Program-made: the position numbers and the translations under genes | Shown here: positions 27,401 through 37,902 of the stretch, piece by piece | Layout: every line of letters starts with the position of its first letter | Position numbering within the stretch: position 1 is the stretch's first letter | NCBI GenBank assembly: GCA_025094145.1 | Contig: JALLLS010000128.1 | Location: 1 to 64,000, forward strand | From: Spinellus fusiger | Taxonomy: Eukaryota; Mucoromycota; Mucoromycetes; Mucorales; Phycomycetaceae | Reading direction: 5' to 3' | Length of the DNA: 64,000 nt | The notes under the pieces: model-generated | The model's database searches: none | What the model saw: the letters and a program-made list of their open reading frames with translations, nothing else | Told to the model about the DNA's origin: nothing

Positions 27401-29439
27401 AAACACGTTACACTTTTGCAAATCAAACATTAATTATTATTTTGAGTTCTCATTAGATGGGTGGACAGAAATACTGGGCTTACTGTGCACAGATGTTTTG
27501 TTTCATAAATGATTGGTAAATATCTTTTTCTTTTTCTTTGACTGTACATGGATCTATAGGAGATAGGCTTTCCATCAACAGTCAAATGAGGATGTGAGAG
27601 AGGACTTGCCAAAGCTTCCAATAAAACTAAATATTGAAATACTAAAATAATGTCTTTTCGTATTGACCAGTACATATCTATTAAGATTCATAATAGCATA
27701 AGCTCTACAGTGTAACCTATACTTCTAGGTTGCTTGTAGGCTATCTTTGGAGCCATCTCTTGATTTTGGATACATGTTCATTTACAGTCCTACTATAAAT
27801 GATAACATGATAGCATGATAACATACTAACATGATAAGGATAAGGGTCCTTTTTAAAATAATAGTGGGTACTGATAGTCATTGGAATGGTGTTGTATCTT
27901 ATGAGTATGTCAATTCAAATATACTCTGTCTAGGAGAAGCCAAAGTCCATGATATTCACCTTTTCCCGCTAGATTCTTTTTCTACTGCATCACTAAAGTC
28001 ATTCCATACTTTCTTTTTATTATTATTATTATTATTATTATCTACTTCACTATGAACCTACACACCAAAGATGTTTCTCTTTTCCAATACTACATTGAAT
28101 ATCTTTGATTTCTTCAAGGTATGTTCATCTTGGTTAGAATATTAAATAGTAAAACAGATAGGCTTTTATGTATGCATATTTTGTAAGAACTACAACATAT
28201 CGGTATCTTAATCGATTGATGTTTAGTGATGGTTTAAACTCATTATAGGCCATTGCTGTAAATATAGATTTAAGTGAACCAAAGTCGTCTTATGGCAACA
28301 CATCAACAGTGAAAAAATAGACACACACTGCTATCCCAAACACACAAAATGTTTCCATGTTTACCTTCTTTGGTCCTTTTTTTATATGGCCAATAGAGAT
28401 TCAGTGCTCTATTCTTATAGACACAAAGGGAACAAGACACACTATACATTGCCATTACAGAAAGACTGCAGAGGATATTCTTATAGTATTTGGTTTGTTG
28501 AAGGCCTATAGACCTTCCTTGCAAAGAAACAAGAGGATAGAGGGTGTGTTTGGTAGTGTATTTATTGAGAAGAGGAGAATATCCTTTTGAATAAGTTTAA
28601 CCCTACGAAACAGATACACACACACACAAATATAAACATAGAGATATAGATATTTACACATACATGTTTATCACTTTCTTTGGTATGATCTATCTTTAAT
28701 AGCTGATATTGTTTTTATAAAGAACAACAACCATGTCTTTATATACTACCCTTTCTCTTTTATTCAATAGTAAACAGTAGAGAAGAATGGTATATCATAT
28801 TCTAGGGAAAAAACGAATTAAGGGAAGTCTATTTTCATAGCCATGTCTATTTCCAATGTTCTCTCTGTGTACATTAGGGTGGCCTTTCCATTGGTATCTC
28901 CATCAAGGCTCTATTTTATTGGATCTTCCATTTTTCTTTTCTTTAACTACACACCCTACCTATTGTACTTTCTTCTTCCATACCAAACTAACACACATAC
29001 TCCTTCTTGTTGTAGAGTGCGGATGTTGAATTCAGAATACTTTTTACCGAAAGCTCATTTCTTTCGTCTCTCCGCTAACCCTTTTCTTTTGAAATTTGCC
29101 TTACTTCCTTCTCTCTTTCTCTTTCTTTCCTTCTTTCCTTCTTTCCTTCCTTTTCTTTTCTTTCTTCTTCTTTCAATTCCTCCCACTGTGCGTGTGTGTG
29201 TGCTTGTGTGTGTGTGTGTGTGTGTCTCATTTCTCCCATCTTTTTCATTGCATGAATTTTGTTATATAATTTCATATTACTGTATATTTTACAATAGATC
29301 ATTTTAACATTTAGTTATGGCAAGTCTTGTTCCCAGCTAAAATATATAATATATAATATAATATATACATATACATATATATATACTCCACATATACTCT
29401 ATATGTATTCTAATAGTATATCTATTGTTCATTTTATAG
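24477..29439. other. Long AT-rich intergenic region, 5 kb
   Basis: I find no supported coding region or recognisable transposon here. Short simple repeats occur (CACA at 24730, TGTGTC at 25388, TTGTA at 26430, TTA at 28017, TTCC/TTTC at 29105-29170, TG at 29195-29226). The right end (28.8-29.4 kb) probably contains the promoter and the missing first exon of the deacetylase, since the exon at 29440 starts after an acceptor (TTTTATAG). Confidence 0.55.
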
Positions 29440-32204
29440 GATACACTTCCAATCAGAGCCTCTTATTCCGTTGACTCCCGTAGACTTTCACCTGCCAGTT
29501 GTGGGTCACCTCCCTATCCCGACAGTGACGGTAATTGGTCTACCTCCTCCAATGGGTCTTTAAAAAGACGACGACGGCCAGGCCGACCCTCCAAGCCAAA
29601 AGCCAAAGACATAGAGCCATGGACAGACGGCATTGCCATGGCAGAAGAAAGACTAAAAGTCCTATCTCTTCCTAGCTATAGTAAATATTCGCTTGCCTAG
29701 GATTGAATTTTATTTTATTTTGCTCATCATCAGAGTAGCTCATTACCGTGCAGGGGATCAGGTAGAAGCCCTCAAATGTAGTGACCACGGCAAAGAATGG
29801 TATTGTGCTCGGGTGGTTCAAGTAGAAGACATCAATGCAAGTGAGCGCGTATTTGTTCACTATGAAGGATGGCCACCCGATCATGCTGACTGGCTCAGTC
29901 TTAGTTCAGTAAGAATGGGGCGTTCTCTTCGGTTTGGGCCTTCTGGCAGAGAAAGTGATCGATCATGGAAGGATTATGCCTCGTTTTATTATACGAAGCA
30001 AGGGATCAGTGTACGGCAGCATACAGGTCTTGTCCAAGACACACGCATGTCACTGCATTGCTGTCCATGTCATTCAGCAGAAACAGTGCATCCCGAACGA
30101 CCAGATCGCATTGCTTCTATTCTGCAAACACTTCATAGTCAAAGGTAGTCATTGTGAGGAAATCCATAGAAAGTCCATGGGTCTATCTTATACTAAGTTG
30201 TTTGTGTAGAATGTTGCGCCTTTTTCATCATATCTATGCACGGGAGGCTACCCTGGAGGAACTGATGCATGTCCATACACCCTTTCATGTTCGCAATTAC
30301 ACTGCTTCTCTCATTAAACAAGAGGATGAAGACACAGAGGATACAGAGGACCTAGAGGAAGAAGAGGATCCCAACCCTCGACCCTACAAAATATCAATTG
30401 CTGCACTTCTCAATCCCATGCCAGAAGATGTCCCGTCCTCACCTCTTCCTCGATGCCAGCGTCACGGCTCCATTGTGGGCCCTACGCGTGGTGTGGGAGG
30501 TGGTGTGGTAGTAGAGGCAGATCAAGACGATATTAAACAGCAACACAGACGGTTCTCCACAGCAGCCATCTCAGCAGATCTGTCGAAAGATGCGCCTGTA
30601 CCTATCTCTCCACCGGGTCTTGTTTGTAAAATGACTTGCGGGGAACTCGGTATTGGTAAGTGAGTAGGCAGGATGATAATTCAACACGTTGGATAGCCGT
30701 CGACACCACCTTCCATCCTCTTCACTCTAGTTTGTCGGCTCGTGTAGCTGCTGGAGCTCTCCTTAATTTAGTAACGCCCATTGTACAAGGTCAACTTCGT
30801 AATGGGTTTGCGCTTATTCGTCCACCAGGTAAATCTAAAGTAAACCCCACCCTTTTGCCCTTGTTTAAAACCACCCACCCCTACCCACCTACAAACATCT
30901 ACAATGCATCATAATAAAATACAATAAAAAGGACATCATGCAGAGGATGACAATGCAATGGGATTCTGCTTCTTTAATAATGTGGCAGTAGCAGTGTCTG
31001 TCACATTGGAAAGATATTCAAAGATCAAAAAGATTCTTGTAGTAGATTGGTAAGTCATGGTCCTTTGATATTGCTAACCTATTAACTACTAGGGATGTTC
31101 AGTAAGTCAGTCCTTATTATAGAAAATAGAGTGGAGGAAGTCGAGTGTCTGTGTGTCTATGAGTCAGTGTATTTATTCAGAGGGTCTTCTTTATAGTCAT
31201 GGTAATGGAACACAGAAAACATTCTACGATAATCCCAATGTTCTGTATATCTCTGTCCATCGATGGGAGCATGGTCGATTCTATCCCTACAGTGGCGCCC
31301 CCAATGAATGTGGACAAGATGCTGGTTTAGGACGGAATATCAACATCTCCTTCAATGAATCTTCTGGGAAACCAAGTAAGCAATGAAGCGTCAGTGCATT
31401 GCTTGTTTCTTCTATTGAACAAGATGTTAAACTCTTTCTCTCTTTAATATGATGATAGAGCCAATGGGCGATACTGAGTTTATAGCTGCGTTCTATCATA
31501 TAGTGCTACCTATTGCACGACAATTTCTTCCAGACATGGTAAGTCTCTCTTTTGAACTGAGTTGTCGTTGTTGACCGAAAGATATTCGTATCTGCTGGGT
31601 TTGACGCTGCGGAAGGACATCCAAGCAATGTAAGTGTATTCCATAAGATGGTTTTATTATTTTTTTATTTTTATTATCTCCACCAAAAGAAGAGAACAAA
31701 CTAACTCCATGGATACTATTGTGAATGACTTGCAGCTTGGAGGCTATAAAGTATCACCGAGAGGATTTGCCTTGATGACAAAAATAATGAAGGATCTAGC
31801 AGAAGAACTATGTGATGGAAGGCTCATATTAACACTCGAGGGTAAGAATCCTCCCACCGTGCAATGTACTGAACCTCTTCTTTCTTATAGGTGGTTATGA
31901 GCTACAACCCTTGGCAAACTCAGCTGCAGCCAGTGTCGCCCAGCTTCTTCCATATCCTATTGACTCTGAGGGACCTTTAGAATACAAACACTCACTCAAT
32001 GCCATTAAGCCTAACCAAGGGGCTGTGGAGTCGTTGAGTACAGTTGCTCAAATCCAAAGACAATTTTGGAATCTTCCTGATTATTTATTTGTCCCTGGCT
32101 TCAGATTCCAATTGCCAGTAGAGTGGAGGGCCAAGGATAGTATTTCTACTCGACCGCGTCGTGATAAAAGACCTATCAAAGTGCCTATTGTTGAGGGTTA
32201 CTGA
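29440..32204 (+). CDS. Class II histone deacetylase fused to AT-hook and chromo-barrel/Tudor-knot module (5' end missing)
   Basis: Removes acetyl groups from lysine, probably on nucleosomes. Exons: 29440-29680, 29736-30144, 30210-30655, 30697-30828, 30932-31049, 31093-31101, 31197-31375, 31459-31538, 31582-31629, 31736-31841, 31891-32204. All phases agree, giving 693 residues here. In order: an AT-hook ([12 protein letters not shown], about residues 44-55), a chromo-barrel ([38 protein letters not shown]), then the HDAC domain from TGLVQDTRM. Metal and catalytic motifs are [27 protein letters not shown] and EGGYEL, the last with the active Tyr (vertebrate class IIa has His). The order resembles HDAC4-type catalytic domains; no Arb2 domain follows, unlike yeast Hda1. 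An acidic, Pro-rich insert of about 90 residues (30320-30600) splits the catalytic domain. The second acceptor (29736 or 29739) and the first exon are uncertain. Confidence 0.9.
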
Positions 32205-32748: not shown

Positions 32749-35052
32749 TTATGCAGTCATGATAACTGCAAGGTTGTAGCAAAGACTTGTGTGAAGTAGA
32801 CGTTTGATGGCCTTTGCTTCAACAGCAACCTCAGAAGGATAATGTTGTGAGTAATAATGAGACAGATATTGGCTTTGGTCTTGGGTTTTAAAGGCAAGCA
32901 CATAGTTATGCATCAATGTATACAGTTCCTTCTTGTTGAAGTAATTGGTGGATGCTAACAGAAAGTAAAGTAAGTCATTTCCTGCCCTCTCTCTTTGTTT
33001 ATTCTTTAGCATAAACTCACATATCAAATAAGGCAAAGAGTCAACAAGCAGCACCAATCTGAATTCTTCTGGTGCAGAAAATATCTTAAAAAGCTCAAGC
33101 AGTAGTGGACTCGCTTCTTCTACACGGTCCGTCTGTAATGACCATGTTCATAAATCACAGTGCTCATGTATACTTTACTTGGACTTACTCTCAGATAGTC
33201 TCTGAATTTCTCGTACAGCATTAGAAAAGCATAGGTCTTACTATCGGATAAAGCAGCAGTACGATCTTCCACAGAAACAAGTCCTTCCAATGTACCTGGA
33301 CACTTATGTTTAGCGCACAATATATATTTATAAAACAATGCCACTGTACTGCTATTACCTTGGGTTAAGAAGTTTTTCAGTACACCAGTGGCCAATACAT
33401 CAAGTTTTGCATAGTTCTTTGCACGTGCGTAGTGGAGGGTAGCTTGATATAAATCTCCATTCTGCTCACAGGTGTCTGCCATGATCTGTAGTATACAACA
33501 ACAACAAAAATGAGTTGTTATGTCTTGTACATCCAATAATTACTTTGAACAGACACCGCTGTACTTTGTTGAACTGTCTCTCTTGGCAGAATGAAAGCAG
33601 TTCTTTGGTAAAGGACACATTATCTTTTATAAAGGGATCTTTGAGAAGCTTTAGATAGAAATATAGAAACATAGATTGTGAGATGAGATATCCTCTTTTA
33701 CTGCCAACTTACATTCTCCATCCATATCTCTTTGTTAGCTCCACACACACTCAAGTAGTCAAATGCTTCATGCCACATTGAGTACTTTGATACCAAATGT
33801 TCAGCATAATCACATATCACATAATAAATGGGATCTGTGCATATCTCCACTTCTCGATCACTGTCTTTCCCGGCATCTTCATCCACCAACCATCCTGCTG
33901 CCAAAAGTAAATGACCAAGATGGGTTTCTGTCCAACTATCATTGAGTATCTCCAAAACATCACTCCAGCACTCTGTCATAATATGGTGGCATAGCTCGGT
34001 GATTTTGTCTACATCATCTGGCAATTCCACTCGTTTTGTCACCAGCGCCAGTTTGCTTTGGTTTTGGAATGGATCATTGTAAAGCAATAGACCCATAAGA
34101 TTCTCAGGGAAGGTGCTTGTCTTGATGATTGTTTCCTCGTCTCCTGCAAGAATATTGAGAATAACACCAAGAGTATCATTGGTATTGATGTATGTATAGT
34201 TCTGACAAACTTCCTGACACTGTCTATGCCATGCATGCCATTTCTCTTTCACACACCCATGTGTGGTTGATGAGAACAGGCTTGGCATAGTGTGAAGGAG
34301 CTGGATGACTTGTTGTACTTGTGCCTGAGGTTCGCGTGGTAGGGTAGAGACACAGGATTTTAATAAAACCAAAGCTTCTTCAAAGTCGCCTCGTAAAAGA
34401 AGTCTTTTGGTGGATGAGTTTCACGTCCTTTTTGCTTTCTTTCTTTCTTTTCTCTTACAATTGCTATTGTTTCTATTTCATTACCTGCAAATAAGATGGC
34501 CTTGAGGCAAGGTCTCCTTTATTCTGTGTGCATTGGCTTTTGTTGTTTTCTCATCATCATCTACTTATAGTAAAAGACAAAGGAAAAGTCCAAGGTGAGG
34601 ATATATCATGCCTTGGAAGTGTCTGTAGAATACTTACTAATGGGCCATACTCCATTCAACCACTCACACACCTTTAGAACAAAAGGAGTAGCCTCACTTA
34701 CTGGGAAATATAATAGCTCACATAGTTCCCATAAGTGCAATACACTGGAAAGATGATTAATGAATGCATCTTCTTTATCTTCCTATAGCACAATGTTAAT
34801 GGAGATTCAGAAAGTCCAATTGAACTCACCTTGGATAAATGGTTAATATATCCCCTCAAGAGATCAGTGTATTCACCAGCATAGCTTGATAGTCTTGCTT
34901 TTCTAATGTACAGTTAAGTCTTCAAGTGTCTTTATCTTCATCTCAACCTACTCTCTTATACTCAACGTAGCAGCAAACAGTGACATTGTAGCCTTGCTTG
35001 ATGCTCTCAAGTCGTGTATCTTCTTAAAGATAGCATGAGAGGCCTCATAAAA
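32749..35052 (-). CDS. NUP85: Nucleoporin Nup85 (Y-complex), N-terminal exon(s) not resolved
   Basis: Structural subunit of the Nup107-160 (Y) complex of the nuclear pore. Exons (complement): 35052-34962, 34897-34830, 34782-34638, 34563-34485, 34403-33713, 33648-33544, 33485-33189, 33132-32749. All junctions are GT-AG and in phase, giving 619 residues; human Nup85 has 656. Alpha-helical blocks align with animal Nup85 in order: SVLHLWELCELLYF, LLLRGDFEEALVLLKS, NILAGDEETI then GLLLYNDPF, WSDVLEILND, FNKVQRCLFKIMADTCEQNG, YEKFRDYLR, VEEASPLLLELFKIF, and the C-terminal RLLHTSLCYNLAVIMTA. About 40-80 N-terminal residues (first propeller blade) must lie upstream of 35052 but I could not place them. 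Exon 35052 starts in phase 0, and so does the end of the acidic gene's last exon, so a fusion cannot be ruled out. Confidence 0.88.
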
Positions 35053-35299: not shown

Positions 35300-37902
35300 C
35301 TAATCAACATTGATAATTAGTAGATGCATCCGTGTTGTTGTAATTACCTCATCACCACTCTCTGTGCCCGATTGTAGGCTAACTTGTGATAATTCATCAG
35401 AATCATGGTGTGTAAAGTCAGTATCACTTTCAAAATCAAACTCTTCTATTGTATTGAACATTTCATCCTCTTCTTCCATTTCTTCTTCATCATCGTTGGA
35501 TCTGCTTTCTGTTGCCTCATCATCAGTAATATAGGCTTGTTCAGTTGTATCATTGCCAGAAACAGGTGCAGTGAATGAAGCAGGATTCTCTACTGTGGAA
35601 CAAAGACCCTCAAGTGCTCCACTCTCCAAAGAATCAACATTCACTGCCAAAAAGGACGAGGACTGCATAGGAGTGTACATAGGATCCTCTATGGATTCTT
35701 CTGAGACTCTAGTTTTGACATAGGGTAAGGCTGAAGAGTCAAGTTCCTCTGGCATCATTTCACAAAGGTGTAGTTGATTCTCAGAAGTGACACTGCTAAC
35801 CGTAGACCCACGCTCAGATGCAAGGAATTTGCTATCCCATAGCTTGGACCATAAGGCACTCTCGTGTTCCTCCATGTCTTTTGTCTGTGGTGTCATCTTC
35901 TGTGAAGAGATCACTGGTAAATGAGAAGGGTCAGTCTGAAATAATTCCCCCTCTTCCCAGCATGGGTTGAGTAGTTCCTGATATTGATGACTGTGAACAG
36001 GTATAGAATCAGCAGTCTTGCTTGAGCTTAATTGTATGCTGTCCGTAATATCATGTGTCTTATACCCAATTTGTTTTTTAATGAGCTCCTTAGCAGAGTC
36101 ATTAACAGCGTCATCAACAGACTGGAGAATAGCTTCTCTATTGAGTTGTTCAGCAGACAAGTCCATAGGCTTAAGAGTATGTTCTTTGTTGAGTTCATCG
36201 ACAGGTGCCCCAATGGGTATATCAATAGGTGCTTGGATGGATTCTTCTACAGGCACCTCAACAGACTCTGCTGTAGCTTCTTGCATACTTTCTTCTTCAT
36301 GGGTCTGAATAGACTCTTCTGAGGGCACTTTGACAGTCTCTTCAGCAGGTACTTCAATAGATGTAGAATCAACTTTTGTGGGTTCCTCTTCTGTTGGTCT
36401 ATCCGTTGATTCCTTTTCTATTGTATGTGCATCAGTGGTATCCAGTTCTAATGTTTTATCCGCCGATGTTTCTTCCATAGTCCCCTTCAAAGAAGCATTC
36501 ACTGTTTCAGAGTCTACACTGTCATTTAGTGCATGAGGATCTTCCACTTTTAAAGTGTCTTCAAGTACTTGTACTGTATCCATGGTAGGAGTTGCTAGAA
36601 TATCAAACTGGTTCTCATGCTCAAGTTCATTCCTATCTACAGAAGATGTCTTATCCAATGGCATGGTGATATGGTGTTTCTTTGAGGGTGTAATCCACTC
36701 TTCACTCGAATGCTCTGTCAATGATTTAGTGTCCTCCAAGGACTTTGGCTGTTCCTCAAGAGTGTCCTGAACAATAGACTCTTCCTTAAGATGGATGGTA
36801 GCCAAGGGATCATTGGACTGTGGTGGATCCACAATAGATGTTTCCTTGTCTGCTTCAGTGTCTGCTTCAGTGTCTTTGATAGAACCACTCTCATCAATAA
36901 CTCCAGGTGATTCTGTGCTTATGCATGATACCTCCTTCAATGCTGATGGTTCAGGACTCTCCTTCTCAGCTGGTCCATTCTCCTCTAAAGTTGTTCTCAT
37001 GGCTTGATAGGATGATGTTTCATTATGGTAGGTTGTTGGTGCAGCACTGATAGATCTGTCAGCACTTGTATTCATATCCAACAGACGGTCCTGTTTATCT
37101 TGAGAGTGTGAACTCACTTGAACAGGATGAGTATCAGGCTCAGTCTCTCCTTCTGTTGGCTCAAAATTGGTATTTCCACTCAATACATCTTCTTCCATCT
37201 CAATCTCAATCTCAATCTCTTCTGGCTTTGTGTTCATGTTGTTGTTCGACCCACTCTTTGATTCTCCCTCTGATTCTCCCTCTGATTCTGTCTGCTTAAT
37301 ATCAATTGTCAGAAGAGAGTCGCTCTCTGACTCTGTTTCTCTCTCTAGAAGGGAATAGGAACTGCTTTCGAGTAGACTGTTCATCTCTTCAGGGAAGCTT
37401 TCGTCCAGAATATTATCCACCTTCTCCTCAGAGCAAGTTAGTCTGTCTAGGGCTGTCTCTGGTGTTGTGGATTGTTCTTTTGCAGTGTCTGTCTCTATCT
37501 CTGTTTCTGTCTCTGTTTCTGTTTCTGTCTCTGTTTCTGTCTCTGTTTCTGTTTCTATCTCTATCTCTACCTCTGTCTGTGGTGTTGCTTTTAGTGTTGG
37601 TTCATGACGAGACTATAGTGTCCATAGTCATAAGTTATCCAAGTCCATTCCTCAGTCTTACTTTTATATTCTCATGATCACTCTCTTGGGTGGTTGTGGG
37701 TGTGCTTTGGCTGTGAGTTAGTTGTTGATCGACTGTTTCTAAAGGAGTGTGTTTGTGTTTATTTAGCTGTGTTCTCTCTCTCTCTTTCATCCATCTACTT
37801 ACCACTCTCTTTTGCACTAGGTGTTGTTGTGGTAGAAGACGTGTGTGGCTCTGTGGTGCCATGCTTCTTTGCCTTTGCCTTTGCCTTTGATTTCTTGCCC
37901 AT
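35300..37902 (-). CDS. Large acidic, Glu/Ser/Thr-rich protein of unknown function
   Basis: Exons (complement): 37902-37803, 37738-37662, and 37612-35300; phases agree, for about 829 residues. It starts MGKKSKAKAKAKKHG, a lysine-rich head. A hexanucleotide repeat coding (ET)n/(EI)n follows at 37570-37480, then a long acidic, probably disordered body with repeated patterns (EEPTKVDSTSIEVPAEE, VPVEESIQAPIDIP). The tail ends in an Asp/Glu stretch (NDDEEEMEEEDEMF). I recognise no domain; short ordered-looking pieces are EEWITPSKKHH, NQFDILA and ALWSKLWDSKFL. A good donor (GTAATT) sits at 35347 after GDE in phase 0, so the last 16 codons may be intron and the protein could continue into Nup85. Function cannot be assigned. 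Confidence 0.7.

Follow-up and report, generated by a model that had tools for sequence, protein, structure and literature searches.

INTRODUCTION

Rpd3S is a multi-subunit complex built on a class I deacetylase, in which the chromo-barrel of Eaf3 guides Rpd3. The other systems closest to the gene described here are the fungal class II deacetylases Hda1 and Clr3 and the animal class IIa enzymes HDAC4 and HDAC7. According to PMC7288346, vertebrate class IIa enzymes have a His where the catalytic Tyr would stand. Section 4.3 of PMC12383505 names His665, Cys667, His678, and Cys751 as the structural zinc ligands of HDAC4 and states that the class IIa-type zinc subdomain helps regulate the contact between HDAC3 and NCOR. 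Here, we describe a gene of Spinellus fusiger (Mucoromycota, Mucorales, Phycomycetaceae) that lies at positions 29440 to 32204 (+ strand) of a 64,000-nucleotide stretch of contig JALLLS010000128.1 (the window), part of a genome of 38.1 Mb in 197 contigs. The gene joins a predicted chromo-barrel to an HDAC4/7-like deacetylase domain that keeps the catalytic Tyr. With moderate confidence, we read its product as a nuclear class II lysine deacetylase that would carry its chromatin-targeting parts in cis.

The locus resembles each of these systems in some respects and departs from it in others. First, as in Rpd3S, a zinc-dependent deacetylase is accompanied by an MRG/Eaf3-type chromo-barrel (the profile matched MRG15 and Eaf3, and Rpd3S structures are in the fold list), but here in a single chain and on a class II enzyme. 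Second, HDAC4 and HDAC7 have the closest catalytic domain, by sequence and as the first Foldseek match, together with the HxCxC...HPE loop and the Cys of CGxxG; the fungal protein differs from them by its catalytic Tyr, by Arg or Gln at the position given for His678, and by its chromo-barrel. Third, like Hda1 and Clr3 it is a fungal class II deacetylase, but it has no C-terminal Arb2 match in Pfam and does have the zinc loop and the barrel. Finally, its barrel shares the predicted fold and three cage positions with those of MRG2, MRG15, MSL3, MOF, KAT5, and PHF20L1, whereas its Pfam score lies below the cut-off and neither Trp, Tyr, nor Phe stands at the fourth cage position.

RESULTS

Barrel and deacetylase share one exon and recur as a fusion in two fungal phyla

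The gene model has 11 exons with GT/AG borders and gives a stop-free reading of 693 amino acids (Table 1). Its nearest deposited protein, BDF14DRAFT_1876946 (P0001) of the same species, is 99% identical across the N-terminal 230 residues. The entire barrel and the start of the deacetylase lie within the uninterrupted exon 2, so splicing cannot separate them and the fusion is settled on DNA grounds; an artefactual fusion of these two parts is ruled out. The match of this exon to its own genome runs from 29738 to 30139 without a stop. P0001 reads SYTHYR where the model reads SYIAHYR, a difference that points to an acceptor at 29739, three bases downstream. The claim of an earlier, sequence-only reading that all domains belong to one polypeptide thus holds; for the barrel and the deacetylase, the DNA alone settles it. 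The AT-hook exon is the sole part of the architecture that hangs on one splice, and the Phycomyces proteins support that splice, as exon 1 is identical to those of P. nitens and P. blakesleeanus (P0002 and P0003) over 55 and 56, respectively, of 80 aligned residues. Two neighboring genes, or pieces brought together by an assembly error, might still have been joined by reading across a gap. The splice needed for the AT-hook exon would fit this, but the barrel and the deacetylase share an exon, and the same order is found in 78 proteins of many species and at a second locus of the Spinellus genome, so that such a joining is highly improbable.

The family was sampled as 125 distinct proteins fetched by searches using this architecture, and the proportion 78/125 is therefore no frequency in nature. 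One contributing search listed 120 of 2,642 matches and scored 7,987 candidates; another sequence search missed Mortierellomycota although they carry the barrel. When the 125 proteins were searched with a barrel profile (domain E < 1e-3), at least 78 predicted proteins had the barrel-deacetylase fusion, in the same order in many species. One of the 78, P0070, matches at only 18 of 62 barrel positions. The 75 named fusion proteins among the matches listed come from Mucorales, Umbelopsis, Bifiguratus, and Mortierellomycota, that is, from the phyla Mucoromycota and Mortierellomycota. The 47 proteins without the barrel are P0034 and P0037 (family members with short N termini), P0035, and 44 of HDAC6 type (by name or domains) or HDAC15.

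The sequence-only reading had called this architecture unfamiliar among described fungal deacetylases and had suggested looking for it in other early-diverging fungi. The literature matches listed, which give partial coverage, contain no description of it (a 2022 eukaryote-wide chromatin survey may well list the domain pair), and their titles and abstract starts hold nothing on the class II deacetylases of these fungi. However, the fusion is not peculiar to this gene, being shared by the 78 predicted proteins. For every listed family member, the precomputed domain annotation gives PF00850 and nothing else, which leaves the barrel unannotated there. The family is a real, conserved, and apparently undescribed variant of class II deacetylase.

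The predicted barrel is of MRG type with three aromatic cage positions

In the model, the Pfam scores of the barrel are below threshold, at 12.0 bits for Tudor-knot (PF11717; cut-off, 20.8) and 14.3 bits for MBT (cut-off, 22). The best Tudor-knot match among 28 family members scanned had an E value of 3.5e-4. A profile built from 18 barrel sequences of the family itself matched the solved structures of MRG2 (5.2e-6) and MRG15 (2e-5), and the barrels of MOF, KAT5, and Esa1 were also among its matches. The predicted fold is a barrel of the MRG/MSL3 type too, in line with what had been read from the letters. The first solved relatives, by sequence and by Foldseek alike, were chromodomain structures of MRG2 determined with methylated H3. 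The cage positions were placed with the MRG15 residue numbers. Three of them are Tyr, Phe, or Trp in 75/78, 77/77, and 78/78 members, and the fourth is Trp, Tyr, or Phe in 0/78, so the full four-residue aromatic cage is absent. With three positions aromatic and the fourth never Trp, Tyr, or Phe, methyl-lysine reading is a plausible function and no more than that.

The barrel may instead be a nucleic-acid-binding or structural module (compare the knotted Tudor of Esa1 and the barrel of MOF), packed on the catalytic domain via the connector, with targeting by DNA or RNA contacts and partners. The state of the fourth cage position and the profile matches to MOF, KAT5, and Esa1 would fit such a module, as would two Umbelopsis proteins that have WQ or WH at the place where most Mucorales have WY and the invariant positions in the connector between barrel and deacetylase. 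On the other hand, almost every member retains three aromatic positions, and the solved structures that rank first are MRG2 chromodomains with methylated H3. We regard a barrel of this kind as somewhat unlikely and prefer one that reads methyl-lysine.

The catalytic domain is closest to HDAC4 and HDAC7 and keeps the Tyr

Pfam recognized Hist_deacetyl (PF00850) in the 693-residue model at 280.3 bits (cut-off, 27.9; E value, 2.5e-83). The catalytic His pair, the D/H/D zinc ligands, and the Tyr are all present, and the Tyr is found in 73/73 ungapped family members. Of the one-domain chains with solved structures, HDAC4 gave the highest sequence score (330.8 bits), followed by HDAC7 (318.9), clr3 (251.3), and HDAC15 (244.6), which agrees with the HDAC4-like domain with an active Tyr proposed at the outset. 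One-domain HDAC6 chains score up to 238.5 bits; the two-domain HDAC6 chains, at up to 449.8 bits, outscore HDAC4 because the scores of both domains are summed. For structure, an AlphaFold2 model of the P. blakesleeanus protein was used (mean predicted local distance difference test [pLDDT] score, 62.6; N terminus and loops of low confidence). HDAC4 came first in Foldseek, with structural Z scores nearly tied for HDAC4 (40.1), HDAC7 (39.1), and HDAC6 (38.9).

The likeness extends to the structural zinc site. A 56-residue piece holding the Cys751 segment had nine structure-chain matches at E ≤ 1e-3, every one of them HDAC4 or HDAC7. The positions of HDAC4 His665, Cys667, Cys669, and His675 in one loop and of Cys751 in a second segment are each kept in 78/78 members; C669 and H675 are presumably the closed-form zinc ligands of HDAC4. 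The His678 position is Arg in 50/78 and Gln in 28/78, which leaves three of the four ligands named in section 4.3 of PMC12383505. Judged by alignment, the fungal domain appears to keep most structural zinc site positions of HDAC4/7. Since the Tyr stands in place of the vertebrate His reported in PMC7288346, the family was not filed as class IIa proper. Zebrafish P0035 carries the name HDAC4 isoform X2. It has the HxCxC loop and EGGY, not the EGGH expected of HDAC4, and the Cys751 stretch is absent in the alignment. Its name may be wrong, and, having the Tyr and not the Cys751 stretch, it was not used as the class IIa type.

No Arb2 match was found by Pfam at E ≤ 1 in the model or in any of the 28 family members scanned, as had been supposed for this gene. 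An Arb2 profile search of the Spinellus genome gave no match, but its controls were equally silent, so that it is uninformative. Contig C142 of this genome carries a further class II deacetylase gene, which by eye we take for the Hda1-like one; Arb2 was not obvious by eye in the unscored frames downstream of it.

In the model, Pfam found no domain on the N-terminal side of the barrel and hence no recognizable class IIa N-terminal region, a negative behind which there was no systematic search for MEF2- or 14-3-3-binding sites. This bears on whether the protein is a signal-regulated shuttling deacetylase in the class IIa style, in which the Ser-rich patch beside KRRRR would be a phospho-controlled nuclear signal, the zinc subdomain would recruit a corepressor, and the barrel would only tune. 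Of the 62 members in which the barrel is preceded by over 60 residues, 55 have a basic run in that stretch, and in 42/62 it has the Ser-rich form SxGSxKR[RK]R. This patch, the HDAC4-type zinc loop kept throughout the family, and the role in HDAC3-NCOR contact given in PMC12383505 (section 4.3) are consistent with shuttling, but the lack of a class IIa N-terminal region recognized by Pfam speaks against it, and we hold it to be improbable.

A second Spinellus copy has its own Phycomyces relatives

The second copy lies on contig C110 at 113500-117500 (L009) and is deposited as P0078, with 49% identity over barrel and connector; no third place in the Spinellus genome matched the barrel-connector query at E ≤ 1. 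It has the same barrel-deacetylase architecture, and the AT-hook core is absent in the deposited form. A quick family tree (79 rows, 16 open forks) unites the 25 Mortierellomycota-type proteins in a single group (support, 100). In it, the C110 copy falls with Phycomyces P0065 and P0067 (99), and the window gene falls with Phycomyces P0002 and P0003 (100). Each Spinellus copy thus groups with its own Phycomyces proteins, so the duplication predates the split of Spinellus and Phycomyces.

AT-hook cores occur at two sites, one in each phylum

An AT-hook in frame with the barrel had been noted from the sequence, and a GRP core with basic neighbors does stand there; on shuffling of the 82 N-terminal residues, a comparable core arose in 0.7% of trials. 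Pfam AT_hook had no match at E ≤ 1 in the protein, but that Pfam model is very short, and filters may drop it. Across the family, the core is found in 32/78 members, compared to a shuffled mean of 1.2/78 (maximum, 4 in 200 rounds), and the pattern occurs in 0/47 of the other fetched proteins. It lies ahead of the barrel in 10/78, all Mucorales (Spinellus, two Phycomyces, Radiomyces, Apophysomyces, Chlamydoabsidia, two Absidia, Backusella, and Mucor hiemalis). It lies after the barrel in 22/25 Mortierellomycota-type proteins, mainly in an R[RK]GRPRK-like form (for example, at residue 691 of P0040), and 22/22 of these carry it in a catalytic-domain insertion that is flanked by the HPE loop and the GIAVDT strand. 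No family protein has it at both sites. That the core sits at a different position in each phylum favors independent gains. Placed on the family tree, the N-terminal hook requires 6 changes, or 5 when the count is restricted to rows in which the barrel is preceded by more than 60 residues, and a single gain followed by losses inside Mucorales is still conceivable. The basic patch is wider in distribution than the AT-hook, so its ancestral role was more likely that of a nuclear signal, and DNA binding may be a later refinement.

Micro-exon, gene ends, and neighborhood

The 9-base exon 6 supplies the Asp of DWDVHH plus part of the first His codon. In 12/78 deposited family proteins, both Spinellus entries included, this micro-exon is dropped and DCHGNG stands in place of DWDVHH. 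It is seen with AG and GT borders in the DNA of both Spinellus copies (in the second copy at L009 2050-2365, reverse strand). Its omission is a recurrent gene-model error in deposited proteins, and models without it would give a misleading picture of a dead enzyme.

The reading frame opens at 29440 right behind an AG acceptor and terminates with TGA at 32204. Before 29440, the frame is closed by the TAG of the acceptor itself, and the start codon lies further upstream. In a scan for ATG with an in-phase GT donor, the best start was 28071-28118 (MFLFSNTTLNIFDFFK), which is used by P0001; this exon is doubtful, as it needs a 1,321-base intron. None of the 25 upstream start candidates listed is like the MVPTHLQHE start of Phycomyces.

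Further features of the gene are given in Table 1. The C-terminal tail (window 32145-32204) is conserved and basic and ends in EGY; an RP[RK]R...EGY-like end is found in 39/78 family proteins. The catalytic insertion of exon 3 has a PKA-like RRFS motif (window 30540-30580); RRFS is present in 26/78 members. The adjoining gene at 33123-34420 (-) encodes a Nup85 nucleoporin (PF07575, 5.3e-31). A Glu/Ser/Thr-rich open frame of 770 amino acids at 35303-37612 (-) has no Pfam match at E ≤ 0.01.

Table 1. Exons and domains of the Spinellus fusiger gene (window positions)
Feature	Position	Strand	Content	Basis
Exon 1 (as modeled)	29440..29680	+	AT-hook and Ser-rich patch (SDGNxSTSSxGSLKRRR); earliest coding exon whose acceptor is secure	AG acceptor, GT donor
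AT-hook	29563..29601	+	Basic residues around GRP core	Read from sequence
Exon 2	29736..30144	+	Entire chromo-barrel, conserved connector GPxGxESxxSWxDYxxF, deacetylase start with zinc-ligand loop	One open frame
Chromo-barrel/Tudor-like domain	29738..29920	+	Cage positions Y103, Y123, W126, and H130 of the modeled protein	Profile, fold, cage counts
HxCxC...HPE loop	30056..30091	+	Matches HDAC4 structural zinc loop	Alignment to HDAC4 chain 4cby
Exon 3	30210..30655	+	Deacetylase with acidic insertion; ends MTCGELGI, Cys (30637-30639) matching HDAC4 Cys751
Exon 4	30697..30828	+	Catalytic domain as far as RPPG
Exon 5	30932..31049	+	GHHAED, catalytic His pair
Exon 6	31093..31101	+	9-base micro-exon, zinc-binding Asp of DWDVHH; not in P0001
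Exon 7	31197..31375	+	From HHGNGT on, catalytic core
Exon 8	31459..31538	+	From PMGDTEF on; also missing from P0001
Exon 9	31582..31629	+	Carries a zinc-binding Asp
Exon 10	31736..31841	+
Exon 11	31891..32204	+	EGGYEL with catalytic Tyr (codon 31896-31898) and basic C-terminal tail

DISCUSSION

In the mechanism that we favor for this putatively nuclear deacetylase, the N-terminal chromo-barrel would dock on nucleosomes, its probable target being a methylated lysine in a low methylation state. Basic segments would add DNA contact, through the AT-hook where it is present (possibly to AT-rich DNA) and otherwise through the KRRRR patch, which would double as the nuclear signal. The enzyme, if active as its intact catalytic residues suggest, would remove acetyl groups from histones or chromatin proteins where it docks, and this may repress or reset transcription. 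The net effect would be Rpd3S, Eaf3 barrel plus Rpd3, condensed to one chain on a class II enzyme.

Two points weigh against this picture. The fourth cage position, never Trp, Tyr, or Phe in the family, is the strongest point against methyl reading. In addition, the AT-hook is, as far as the sequences indicate, a lineage-specific addition and not family-wide. The sequence-only reading had proposed a coupling of DNA binding, methyl reading, and deacetylation; the parts do lie in one protein, but with a hook before the barrel in so few members and an incomplete cage, the three-function coupling was overstated.

A broader and more tentative proposal, possible but short of probable in our view, is that these proteins are a family of single-chain reader-eraser corepressors. 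A competent HDAC4-like deacetylase would have been fused to a methyl-lysine-reading barrel before Mucoromycota and Mortierellomycota parted, with AT-hooks added independently at two sites, to give a one-polypeptide counterpart of Rpd3S and, outside animals, a form of the class IIa lineage that has both the Tyr and the structural zinc. If true, such a form would have been preserved in these fungi. The combination of catalytic Tyr and HDAC4-type zinc loop in one domain is relevant to the question of how class IIa enzymes came to lose their activity. The presence of AT-hooks at a different site in each of the two phyla suggests that tethering to DNA has been under selection. Reader and eraser are usually separate subunits, as in Rpd3S, and a natural one-chain form would let the coupling of methyl reading to deacetylation be tested in one protein.
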